A DNA stretch of 43,295 bases. Origin: a virus. The stretch covers positions 1 to 43,295 of IMG/VR virus record IMGVR_UViG_3300046007_011553; one strand, 5' to 3'. Positions 13,041 through 19,446 of the stretch are shown here, piece by piece (position 1 is the first letter of the stretch; the number at the start of each line of letters is the position of its first letter). The notes below the pieces were generated by a model. The model had not been told where the DNA came from, did not search any database, and saw only the letters and a list, made by a program, of their open reading frames with translations. Made by a program: the position numbers and the translations under genes.

Positions 13041-15179
13041 TTAGAATGAGGAGTGGATCATCCTTTGAGCCTCTTTTATCGTTGGCTCGTTATTGCGGAT
13101 TCTCAAGTCGTCGTTGAAGTTGTTCGTGGTGTTGTTGATTTTTGTGTTCACAGATGAGTTATTTGAGATTGGAGCAGCCGTTGGTGCCGCAGCAGCAGCC
13201 TTTGCTTCGCTCAATGCACCCATTTCTGCATTGTAGGAACCAACCATCTTGCCAACATTTGTGTTTGGTGTGGCAGGGGCAACTATTTCGCCGCTCACTT
13301 CGGTTGCAGACGCTTCGCCACCCATGCCCTTTGCTCCCGCTGCGGTATTTACTGCTGCACCCATTTCACCCACAGCACCTTCAGCAGCCTTTGATTCTTT
13401 TTGATCTTCTGCACCACCGATCTCAAGAAGAGAACCCACACCTGGAATAGATGAAACCATGTCATATATTCCTCTACCGCCTATTGCATCGGCAAGAAGT
13501 TCAGCAATTTTTCCACCTGCCCATGATCCGCCGAGTGTTCCTACTAGTGTTCCAAATCCAGGTACAGGAATGAGAGAACCTAGCAGACCACCACCGATAG
13601 AACCTAGAACTTCACCTACTGTTCCTACAAGCGTTCTTCCTATTCTTTCTTTTTTCTCATCTGGCGATAGTTCGGGATCGTTCTTTATTCCAGCAATATC
13701 AAATGCACCCATTGCTCCAGATATGAGAGCACCCAGCCCAGGAAGAGACACTATGCTCTTGACTATTTTTCCTGCTCCAGATTTTACTGCGGGTCCGAGT
13801 GCTTTTACAGGATTAAGTCCACTCACCGCTCCAGAAACCGAACCCCATGCCTTGCTTAACCATCCGCTTGCTTTGGTAGCCATTCCTGCGCCTGCTTTAA
13901 TAGCAGATGATCCTACAGACTTAACTGCTCCAACTGCTTTGGAGCCAAGGTTAGTAGTTGTTTTTGCCATAGCCGAAACGTCTTTAAAAAGAGAGGTGGT
14001 CTTGAAGGCACCTAGAGCCTTGCTCCCAAGTTTGCCCAATCCCCCTATCGCAGATCTTCCTGCTCCACCAACACGAGTCATCAATCCACCCATTGCTTTT
14101 GTTGGCAGCAGATTCATCAGACCACCCGGACCAAGCATACTGGCGATTGAAGAAAGTATGCCGCCACCTCCTGCTTTTTCTGCCGCGCCAGCAGGGGCAG
14201 ATGACCGAGCGACATTTCCAAGTTTCTTCATACCTTCCAATTCCGACTCGCGTGCTGCCAATTCATCAGTAGAAGGACCGAAGCGATCAACGAGAAGTTC
14301 GCGTATCTTGCGAACCTCTGCGTGTATTTCTCCCAACACCCCACCGCCGCCTTCCATTCCCTTCAACAAACCAGGAATTTTGGACGCTGGAGATCCTCCA
14401 AGGCTTGCCGCTGCTCCTTCTCCCTTTTGCTTTTCGGAAGACAGCGCACCAAAAACCTTGCTGCCTCCACTACCGAGTGCCTTCTGCTGAAGAAGAGTGC
14501 CAGAGTAGCCTTCTAATGATTCTTTAGCCTCGCGTTTTTGCTGTAAGAATTCTGATACAAGACCGCCAACTATTGGTATTTTGGAAGCCAATCTTTCGGG
14601 AATTCGCTTTTTGAAGTCCATTGCCTTGTCTTTCACAAATTCTCTGAAAGACGTTTGCTTTTTAAGTTGCTCTTCAACAGGCGCAATTACCCTGTTTAGT
14701 TCTTTTGCTATTTCAGACTGCGACCCCTGAGTCTTTTGAGCCATATCACGTATGAACTTCAGTTTTTCGTAAATGACAGCCGCTTCAGCATTAGATGCTG
14801 TCAGGGTGTCATCCGCTAACTGCACTGTTTCTTTGAAGAGGGTTCTTGCTGCTCTTCCTGCGGGATCGTCTACTTTAAATTTTGATGCGTTGGATTCAAT
14901 GTAATCAAGCAACTGCTGTCGTATGCTTATTTTGCTGTCAATGCCAAGAACTATTCTGTCCAAGGCTCCTGTGGAAAATCCCATCTCTTGGCGTTGCTGA
15001 ATGATAGAACGCAGGAAATCAACTTGATTTTCCATTACTGCTGTTGTGGCAGCGGATGGAACTGCTGCTGGTGCGGTTTTTTGAACAGGCAAGAACCTTC
15101 CACCTGGACCGCGTTTTCGCGAGGCAGCAAGATGCTGATGTAGGGTTTTACCCTTGGGTGTTCGTTTGCCTTTTGCCAT
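13041..15179 (-). CDS. 29: Tail tape measure protein (gp29-like), 712 aa
   Basis: ATG 15179 has AGGGAA upstream. The 712-residue protein has a basic N-terminus, a long helical region (about residues 50-230, heptad-like), an extended Gly/Ala/Ser-rich hydrophobic stretch (about 330-580: SKALGAFKTTS, AGMATKASGWLSKAWGSVSG, GEVLGSIGGGLLGSLIPVPG) with membrane-like segments, and an Asn-rich C-terminus (SVNTKINNTTNNFNDD). This is the layout of a tape measure, which fixes tail length and is ejected into the cell envelope. T4 gp29 is about 590 residues. Its place directly after the gp26/gp51 pair, with gp54, gp48 and gp27 nearby, supports the call. Confidence 0.85.
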   Translation of the reverse strand: MAKGKRTPKGKTLHQHLAASRKRGPGGRFLPVQKTAPAAVPSAATTAVMENQVDFLRSIIQQRQEMGFSTGALDRIVLGIDSKISIRQQLLDYIESNASKFKVDDPAGRAARTLFKETVQLADDTLTASNAEAAVIYEKLKFIRDMAQKTQGSQSEIAKELNRVIAPVEEQLKKQTSFREFVKDKAMDFKKRIPERLASKIPIVGGLVSEFLQQKREAKESLEGYSGTLLQQKALGSGGSKVFGALSSEKQKGEGAAASLGGSPASKIPGLLKGMEGGGGVLGEIHAEVRKIRELLVDRFGPSTDELAARESELEGMKKLGNVARSSAPAGAAEKAGGGGILSSIASMLGPGGLMNLLPTKAMGGLMTRVGGAGRSAIGGLGKLGSKALGAFKTTSLFKDVSAMAKTTTNLGSKAVGAVKSVGSSAIKAGAGMATKASGWLSKAWGSVSGAVSGLNPVKALGPAVKSGAGKIVKSIVSLPGLGALISGAMGAFDIAGIKNDPELSPDEKKERIGRTLVGTVGEVLGSIGGGLLGSLIPVPGFGTLVGTLGGSWAGGKIAELLADAIGGRGIYDMVSSIPGVGSLLEIGGAEDQKESKAAEGAVGEMGAAVNTAAGAKGMGGEASATEVSGEIVAPATPNTNVGKMVGSYNAEMGALSEAKAAAAAPTAAPISNNSSVNTKINNTTNNFNDDLRIRNNEPTIKEAQRMIHSSF

Positions 15180-15210: not shown

Positions 15211-15399
15211 TCACAGTGGCTTGCGATTTGATACCTTTTCCCGTTCCTTTTTTAAATGCTGTATGAGCATTTGTATGTATACCTCTCGCTCCCAAGGTAT
15301 CATGCCTTCTATTTCTGAAAGCGAGTATCCGTGGTTCTGCATGAGGCTGAAGTTCAGTTGGTAGTATGCCCCCAAGTCATTGTGACAGAGGGCTATGGA
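15211..15399 (-). CDS. 51: gp51-like hub assembly factor, expressed by -1 frameshift from gp26
   Basis: The frame encodes a short gp51-type domain (AYYQLNFSLMQNHGYSLSEI, then EGMIPWEREVYIQMLIQHLK), with the conserved MIPWERE motif. In T4, gp51 is needed for assembly of the baseplate hub. The frame is open upstream to a GTG at 15456, but no ribosome site precedes that codon or the TTG at 15375. Instead it continues gp26 in the -1 frame from the slippery T-TTT-TTT at 15405-15399. Entry after the slip adds 62 residues (SIALCHNDLG...) to gp26. Independent initiation at TTG 15375 remains possible. Confidence 0.75.
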   Translation of the reverse strand, partial: SIALCHNDLGAYYQLNFSLMQNHGYSLSEIEGMIPWEREVYIQMLIQHLKKEREKVSNRKPL

Positions 15400-15405
15400 A
15401 AAAAA
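15368..15405 (-). promoter_or_regulatory. Programmed -1 ribosomal frameshift signal
   Basis: On the - strand the gp26 codons GAT TTT TTT CCA TAG contain a perfect X-XXY-YYZ heptamer, T-TTT-TTT (15405-15399), in the correct frame. A 5-base spacer (CCATA) follows, then a hairpin from 15393 to 15368: GCCCTC and TGTCA pair with TGAC and GGGGGC around loop CAA, about ten pairs with a small internal loop. Slippery site, spacer and stem all match the standard layout. Confidence 0.8.
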
Positions 15406-16103
15406 TCTGATACGCTGCTCAACTCCGTGTTTACCATGTGTTTGCACGACGGACACGTAAATTTGAATGAATACCGCAGTTCAGGTGTGGACTGCACAAA
15501 TTCCATCATCTTTGCAAACTGATCTGGTAGCAGGTTATCTACAAACTCTCCCAATTGCTTTGGATCAATCTCACTTGTAGGATGAACTTGGTCATCAAGA
15601 ATCACCGACTCAATGCACTTTCTTGCCAAGTCAAATGCAATTTCTACTTCGCTCTTGTTGTAGTCAAAATCATGAATAGACGGGTAGCGCATCACCAACG
15701 CCAAGTTATCCGATAGTTTGATTGTGTCGTCTATCTTTGGCTTGTCTGCATTTGTAACGGCGATGTCGTCCAATTTGATTTTTATGGTCGTGGTGGTTTT
15801 GCAGTTGGAACACACCACTTGGGGCTTTACTTCTTCACCAACAGACTTAGCCCGTATTTGCAGGAATGCGTATTCTGCATCAGCAGAGCAGAGTTTCTTG
15901 GTGTCAAGAGCGTCGTTGGTGCACGCTAAAATCACATTTCTCATGGCATTGTTGATGCCGTTGATGTCCTTTGTCTGTAGTGCCATGAGAAGAATCTTTT
16001 CCTCTCGCACCACAAAAGGTCTAAACTTGCAAGTAATTTTTGATACTGGAAGGGTAAATGTGTATTGTGGAAGGGCAGCAGCCTGTAAATTCAGTGTGGT
16101 CAT
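15393..16103 (-). CDS. 26: Baseplate hub protein gp26-like, 236 aa
   Basis: ATG 16103 is chosen because AAAAGGAA precedes it; the TTG at 16118 has no ribosome site. The 236-residue product carries the T4 gp26 family pattern: FTLPVSKITCKFRPFVVREE with KILLMALQTK, then EYAFLQIRAKSVGEE, then NLALVMRYPS. Four cysteines, C98-x2-C101 (CSNC) and C217-x2-C220 (CPSC), form a likely zinc ribbon. gp26 is essential for hub assembly in T4. Its last codons contain the frameshift heptamer, so two products are expected: gp26 alone and a gp26-gp51 fusion. A late promoter lies upstream at 16138-16131. Confidence 0.85.
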   Translation of the reverse strand: MTTLNLQAAALPQYTFTLPVSKITCKFRPFVVREEKILLMALQTKDINGINNAMRNVILACTNDALDTKKLCSADAEYAFLQIRAKSVGEEVKPQVVCSNCKTTTTIKIKLDDIAVTNADKPKIDDTIKLSDNLALVMRYPSIHDFDYNKSEVEIAFDLARKCIESVILDDQVHPTSEIDPKQLGEFVDNLLPDQFAKMMEFVQSTPELRYSFKFTCPSCKHMVNTELSSVSDFFP

Positions 16104-17883: not shown

Positions 17884-19446
17884 ATGGACCCAGCATACGC
17901 TTACGAAACACGGACAAGGGACGGTGTTGCTGCCTCTACATTAGCCCCAACAGTCGCTTTTGTGCGAACTCCGGGCGTAGATGGCGTAAAGCCGTTCATA
18001 TCCACAAATCGCTCAACCTCTTCTCAAAAATTGATGGAGAAGATGTTCAATGACCAAATGGATACGGATGTCATGCGTGCTTTGGAGGGCACCCCAAGGA
18101 CCGTAAGGGGATCACGCAAGAAGCCGTCAGTCATGCGGTATCCCGCAGAGATTGGATCGGGTGAGTTTCCGCACGTAATGCAGTTCAAGGTGTATTGGCG
18201 GTGGGAAAACAAGGATATAGCGGAAACCCTGCAAAACCTGAAGGAAGAAACATCCAAGACGCTTGGTGGATTGAATAAACTGACTGAGTACATCAGGCAG
18301 GACAATCTCAGCAAGGAAACGGTTGAGCAAAGTGGGTTGAGTGATGAGCAGATTAGCGCACTGAAGGAGTTGGCAAACAACACCAATCTATTGAAGGTTG
18401 TTGATCCAACCATCAATGACACTTTGGCAAATATGCTTGCCAACAACCCAAACAAGGCAAAATTGATCCTTGAGGAAACCATAAAGTCGTATCAGACCCG
18501 TCTTAGCAGCATAGAGGCTGAAATCAGCGATGGTGCAGGTAGAATCGGTTTGGACGAAATGGAGCGGTCAATGGTGTTCAACCGCTTGAATGAGAACATT
18601 TCTCAAACAGGAGTGGGGCAGGCTGCTGTGTCTGGTGGGCTGTTTGGAGGAATATTGGGTGGTGTAGCAGGATTTTTTCTTGGTGGACTAAAGGGTGCAG
18701 CGGTCGGCGCGGGTATTGGCGGTGCCGCAGGAGCAGCAGGAGTTGCTGCCACAGTTGGCGCAGCAAAACTGTTTCAGAATGAGGCAGTGTACGATCAGAT
18801 GCTGTCCATATACCTTCCGTTCTGCGGAAAGATAAACAACGAAGATAGTTTTCAATATGAAGAACCAAGCCAAGCGGTTGCTGGTGCGTTTTTTGATGCC
18901 GCAGGAAATCCAATTGAAACTGCTGGTCAGGCAGTCAACGTTGGAATAGAAAAGGCGGCAGGTGCTGTTGGTGCAGCGGGTGCAGGTGCCCTTGCTCGTG
19001 GAAAAGTTCTAAATCCACGCCTTGAAAAACTGTTCAAACAAAAAGATTTTAGATCATTTGCATTCTCTTGGGAGTTCTATCCCCGCAGCAAAGAGGAAGT
19101 GGAGCAGGTCCGCGAGATCATAGAAGCGTTCCGTTATCATTCGCACCCCGCAACAGATGACGCTACCGCAGAGAACCAAAGCAAGGTTCAGGTAGTGCTT
19201 CGCGTACCAGCAGAATTTGAAGTTCGTTTTTTGTCAACCAATCCCGATCCAAATGCAGCAGGGTTTGTGGAGAACGAGTACATCCCACGAATCGGTCGTT
19301 GCGCTCTGAACAGCATCTCAGTGGATTACACTCCAAACTCAATCTACAGTTCGTTTGTTGATAACTCTCCCACTGCAATCGTACTCACAATGCAGTTTAC
19401 AGAAATGGGTGTGCTTACCCGCGAGGCAGTGGAGAAGGGCTTCTGA
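17884..19446 (+). CDS. 48: Baseplate tail-tube cap gp48, 520 aa
   Basis: ATG 17884 follows CGAGGA. The N-terminal (FPHVMQFKVYWRWENKD, near residue 94) and C-terminal parts (FRSFAFSWEFYPRSKEEVEQ near 390, EFEVRFLST, IGRCALNSISVDYTPN, MGVLTREAVEKGF) match T4 gp48, which joins hub and tube. Between them lies a long insertion. It has a helical coiled-coil-like region (about 110-240) and then a Gly/Ala hydrophobic stretch (about 250-295: GLFGGILGGVAGFFLGGLKG), which looks like a glycine zipper membrane segment. T4 gp48 is about 364 residues, so this form is about 150 longer. The stop overlaps gp53 by one base. Confidence 0.85.
   Translation: MDPAYAYETRTRDGVAASTLAPTVAFVRTPGVDGVKPFISTNRSTSSQKLMEKMFNDQMDTDVMRALEGTPRTVRGSRKKPSVMRYPAEIGSGEFPHVMQFKVYWRWENKDIAETLQNLKEETSKTLGGLNKLTEYIRQDNLSKETVEQSGLSDEQISALKELANNTNLLKVVDPTINDTLANMLANNPNKAKLILEETIKSYQTRLSSIEAEISDGAGRIGLDEMERSMVFNRLNENISQTGVGQAAVSGGLFGGILGGVAGFFLGGLKGAAVGAGIGGAAGAAGVAATVGAAKLFQNEAVYDQMLSIYLPFCGKINNEDSFQYEEPSQAVAGAFFDAAGNPIETAGQAVNVGIEKAAGAVGAAGAGALARGKVLNPRLEKLFKQKDFRSFAFSWEFYPRSKEEVEQVREIIEAFRYHSHPATDDATAENQSKVQVVLRVPAEFEVRFLSTNPDPNAAGFVENEYIPRIGRCALNSISVDYTPNSIYSSFVDNSPTAIVLTMQFTEMGVLTREAVEKGF

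Follow-up and report, generated by a model that had tools for sequence, protein, structure and literature searches.

The gp26-type locus of the window

The window, meaning the whole stretch of DNA analysed here, is a 43,295-nt fragment of an uncultured virus that carries T4-like tail genes. We identified a gp26-type gene, an overlapping -1 frame that encodes a gp51-type domain, and a tape-measure-like gene downstream of this pair. A slippery heptamer and a hairpin are found where the first two meet. The features are listed below in the direction of transcription.

15393..16103, (-) strand: gp26-type gene, predicted short chaperone form, 236 aa (matches to PF12322 and phrog_150)
15211..15480, (-) strand: -1 frame, open from stop to stop, that overlaps the gp26 end (from the reading frame)
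15399..15405, (-) strand: slippery heptamer T_TTT_TTT (from the sequence; T_TTT_TTN is in phase in 101 of 103 loci)
15211..15399, (-) strand: -1 frame extension with the gp51-type domain, 62 aa, SIALCHND...NRKPL and then TGA (match to phrog_634)
15368..15393, (-) strand: hairpin, likely stimulator (folding energy and z; near-identical in L003-L005)
13041..15179, (-) strand: tape-measure-like gene, 712 aa (open reading frame, position, variable length, fast divergence)

The gp26-type gene starts at an ATG at 16103, with AAAAGGA just 5' of it, and stops at a TAG at 15395-15393 on the minus strand. The product matches PF12322 (E 1.9e-54) and phrog_150 (1e-56). Its last codons are TCA GAT TTT TTT CCA TAG, and they contain T_TTT_TTT at 15405-15399, in the X_XXY_YYZ phase, as the preliminary description had claimed, and 10 nt before the TAG.

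In the AF2 model of gp26 (pLDDT 91), the N-terminus has a chaperone-like fold of the HK97 type. Residues 1-90 align with the HK97 tail assembly chaperone 2OB9 (VIA-align 2 against solved structures; Z 7.4, 84/104 residues), with the second-ranked solved structure at a Z of only 2.6. The alignment covers one domain at 7% sequence identity, and a Z under 8 taken alone can reflect a common arrangement. Foldseek of the model against the Protein Data Bank gave nothing at E 0.001; the HK97 chaperone had the top probability among the matches listed (E 1.5). A gp26 profile found no relative among Protein Data Bank sequences. Unlike the HK97 protein, gp26 has a further domain of ~145 residues.

Past the heptamer, the -1 frame translates as SIALCHNDLGAYYQ...MIPWEREVYIQ...NRKPL. 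This frame has a match at 1e-26 to phrog_634, the family of the baseplate hub assembly catalyst gp51, which agrees with the gp51-type MIPWERE domain proposed earlier. It also matches the C-terminal end of phrog_150 (223-281, the last 59 positions) at 4e-6. Thus, phrog_150 already includes proteins with both parts. The predicted long form has 235 + 62 = 297 aa. Relative to the related locus L003, amino acid identity is 86% for the -1 protein and 72% for gp26.

The only listed -1 frame start upstream of the site is a GTG at 15456, and no Shine-Dalgarno sequence of at least 5 bases was found for it in the identical locus L001. In the window and its nearest relatives, the first -1 frame ATG lies ~25 codons beyond the site, past conserved residues. 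The claim that the domain lacks a start with a ribosome site thus stands, and an independent start for gp51 at this locus was rejected.

The hairpin (GCCCUC-UGUCACAAUGACUU-GGGGGC) has its first base exactly 5 nt after the heptamer. Its energy is -14.4 kcal/mol, with z = -2.7 relative to dinucleotide shuffles of 40 nt, and an equally good fold occurs in about 2.7% of local windows. The hairpin sequence is nearly unchanged in L003-L005, even though the genes are 70% identical. Across 52 clusters of related loci, the mean z at the site is -0.9 vs -0.26 in control windows (P 0.005), and z is below -1.5 in only one third of them. The 5-base spacer and stable hairpin of the preliminary description are therefore present, but the hairpin is retained in the closest relatives only. 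As a general conserved element the hairpin is not supported; it is plausibly a local stimulator and no defining part of the system.

An AGGGA precedes the ATG of the downstream gene at 15179. Across relatives, the open reading frame after the pair ranges from 295 to 1064 aa and diverges quickly. None of the PF or phrog family matches names the 712-aa frame a tape measure. Comparison of downstream frames with T4 gp29 gave nothing convincing (best E 0.0036, in another locus). The earlier statement that the tape measure gene follows thus holds for the presence of a 712-aa frame, and we call its product tape-measure-like by position.

Conservation of the site and of the -1 frame

We compared 103 related loci, 23 of them from phage records and viral contigs and 80 found by searching viral contigs with a profile. 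Grouping at 60% identity gave 54 clusters. The relatives include Kyanoviridae, Straboviridae outside the T4 type, Pootjesviridae, Emdodecavirus, Menderavirus and phage pf16, and gp26 identity among them falls to 23%. In every locus, the -1 frame is open for at least 155 nt beyond the gp26 stop and encodes the gp51-type domain.

The preliminary description named a missing heptamer in near relatives as a result that would count against a frameshift. This was checked, and T_TTT_TTN is kept in phase in 101 of the 103 loci (52 of 54 clusters). The site reads TTTTTTC in 75 of these 101, TTTTTTT in 24, and TTTTTTG and TTTTTTA in one each. The distance from heptamer to stop is 10 nt in 86 loci. T_TTT_TTC is also retained in three Vibrio phages that joined the comparison afterwards, including two Schizotequatrovirus. 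The gp26 stop lies 31 nt after the heptamer in L072, L079, L087 and L100, with at least 8 gp26 codons in between; this extended overlap is absent from the other loci.

Codon choice at the site is restricted. The first Phe codon is always TTT (elsewhere in these genes, Phe is encoded by TTT in 68% of cases and by TTC in 32%), and the codon ahead of the site ends in T in every case. From codon usage alone, the probability of both in all 52 clusters is about 1e-18, a value that ignores shared ancestry of the clusters and so serves as a guide rather than an exact probability.

In 42 of 101 loci, a stop closes the -1 frame no more than 4 codons 5' of the heptamer, and 27 of 101 lack any ATG, GTG or TTG up to 12 codons past it. 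In such loci the conserved residues just past the site are reachable only by slipping. Among the 101 loci, no start codon in the -1 frame before the PWER core has a Shine-Dalgarno sequence of at least 5 bases.

Serratia phage 3M (Ackermannviridae), the similar Klebsiella phage Croc and Vibrio phage K444 have an open -1 frame without the T heptamer. Their sites read G_GTT_TTC, G_ATT_TTC and G_CTT_TTT, and in K444 an ATG overlaps the gp26 stop. The Ackermannviridae-type sites (L111, L022, L023) resemble the GTTTTT motif of Vandenendeviridae (PMC12846349). The site of L032, GATTTTTTTTTATAATGATG, has nine T, and past the stop two ATG codons overlap. Slipping and re-initiation may operate side by side at that locus.

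Public annotation of the gp51 part is uneven. It comprises 32 codons in P-SSM7, 48 in Melnitz, and none in S-CAM4 and Serratia phage 3M. The -1 frame is intact in all of these loci (L012, L024, L025 and L111).

A probable single gene with two predicted products

The gp26-type gene and the gp51-type domain are very probably a single gene with two products, which would be tail assembly chaperones made through a -1 frameshift. Most ribosomes would stop at the gp26 TAG and release the short form. A minority would move one base back with two Phe-tRNAs on T_TTT_TTT, helped at this locus by the hairpin, and would make the long form with its C-terminal domain. By analogy with lambda G/GT, the presumed tape measure protein from the next gene would be coated by many short and few long copies, and the long form would recruit the tail tube protein through its C-terminal domain. 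We infer the slippage and its rate, as well as binding to the tape measure, tube recruitment and absence of the products from the virion.

The gp51 domain could instead be a separate protein, translated by re-initiation or translational coupling near the gp26 stop. Public records annotate it as its own gene (e.g., in P-SSM4 and S-CRM01), and an in-frame ATG lies within about 12 nt of the stop in 48 of 101 loci, so re-initiation is possible in those phages. The window and its nearest relatives lack an ATG in this position, and no -1 frame start in the 101 loci has a 5-base Shine-Dalgarno sequence. A separate gp51 would also leave unexplained why heptamer and phase are kept in nearly all loci. 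We consider a separate protein very unlikely.

Slippage of RNA polymerase on the T-run is less probable still. Some mRNAs would then gain one U and code for the fused product; the run is of 6 or 7 T, and an added base does give the -1 frame. However, three quarters of the sites (75/101) have six T only, which is short for transcriptional slippage. The fixed phase and the TTT-TTY pattern, with wobble at the seventh base, are what slippage of tandem tRNAs predicts. A mistake in sequencing or assembly, or decay of the gene, has a negligible probability as the origin of the frame break: nothing beyond the split itself suggests it, and all 103 loci, whether from isolate genomes or metagenomes, break at identical codons and conserve both halves. 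Sequencing error is refuted by this comparison.

Relationship to other tail assembly chaperones

The locus resembles lambda G/GT in having a short open reading frame with a predicted -1 slip site near its end and an overlapping -1 extension; this short frame lies 5' of the tape measure gene in lambda and 5' of the tape-measure-like gene here. It differs in its longer gp26, which adds ~145 residues to a chaperone-like N-terminal domain. The lambda heptamer is also different (G_GGA_AAG). The E/E' pair of P2 is a contractile-tail counterpart with a -1 frameshift at a T-rich site. The preliminary description had equated the gp26/gp51 pair with both systems, and the heptamer, -1 product, lack of a start, HK97-like fold and position before a tape-measure-like gene all agree with this.

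It had also suggested that such a role was not established for gp26/gp51, which does not hold. According to later papers (PMC10885494, PMC12846349), Vladimirov, Gautam and Davidson (2022; Virology 566:9-15) identified the tail assembly chaperone genes of T4-like phages; the same papers credit them with poly-T frameshift signals and the duplicated arrangement of T4. As these papers present it, the kind of system is thus known, and the locus in the window is a clean new member. T4 gp26 and gp51 have been listed as hub assembly chaperones, with gp51 absent from the particle (PMC3004832), and a 2016 review described the G/GT frameshift as conserved in long-tailed phages except T4 (PMC5009743). The chaperone locus of Vandenendeviridae and Andersonviridae has a -1 frameshift with a conserved T-rich motif and a frame that is open in every genome (PMC12846349); the motif is GTTTTT there, whereas it is TTTTTTN in the group of the window. 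Nothing that deals directly with a gp26/gp51 frameshift in cyanophages was found in the literature searched.

The likeness to T4-like gp26/gp51 consists of PF12322, phrog_150, phrog_634 and the short and long forms. As in other T4-like chaperones, the gp51 domain at the window locus is the C-terminal part of the long form only. In the T4 type (RB14, Thanatos-2, SP1) there are two divergent genes, whereas the long form of the window would arise by frameshift. Genes 26 and 51 are divergent in T4 itself, as they are in RB14, and T4 gp51, at 249 aa, corresponds to the entire long form rather than to the MIPWERE domain alone. When the fused product was used as a profile, RB14 gp26 matched at 9e-30 and RB14 gp51 at 1e-16. 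The former protein ends right after the FF of the slip site; in the latter, the match crosses the junction into the C-terminal domain. Each half, searched as a profile of its own, also matches gp51 of RB14, Thanatos-2 and SP1, scoring well above shuffled controls, and the -1 domain profile matches the C-termini of these gp51 proteins. T4-type gp26 and gp51 also match each other (probability 97.8%, E 1e-12). Thus, T4-type gp51 appears to be the long form and gp26 the short form, separated by duplication, and T4 itself uses no frameshift. The proposed equivalence of T4-like gp26/gp51 with the chaperones therefore stands, but T4 reaches it with divergent genes and a full-length gp51.

We lean slightly towards a T_TTT_TTY frameshift as the ancestral state for gp26/gp51 in T4-like phages and the large contractile phages related to them. 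Duplication into short and long copies would have freed the T4 type from it, and in Ackermannviridae the site would have become G_GTT_TTC or a similar form. Frameshifting and gene duplication would be two ways of supplying both forms, short and long, and could be compared by experiment. In hundreds of cyanophage and related genomes, the products annotated as "baseplate hub subunit" and "baseplate hub assembly catalyst" are best interpreted as the two parts of a single frameshifted chaperone gene, the second of which is shortened or missing in many records.

Elsewhere in the window, a gp48-type tail tube cap protein (17884-19446, (+) strand) has a glycine-zipper-like insert at residues ~240-300 (GLFGGILGGVAGFFLGG...), before its conserved C-terminal part. 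A match to phrog_22557 falls at this insert.
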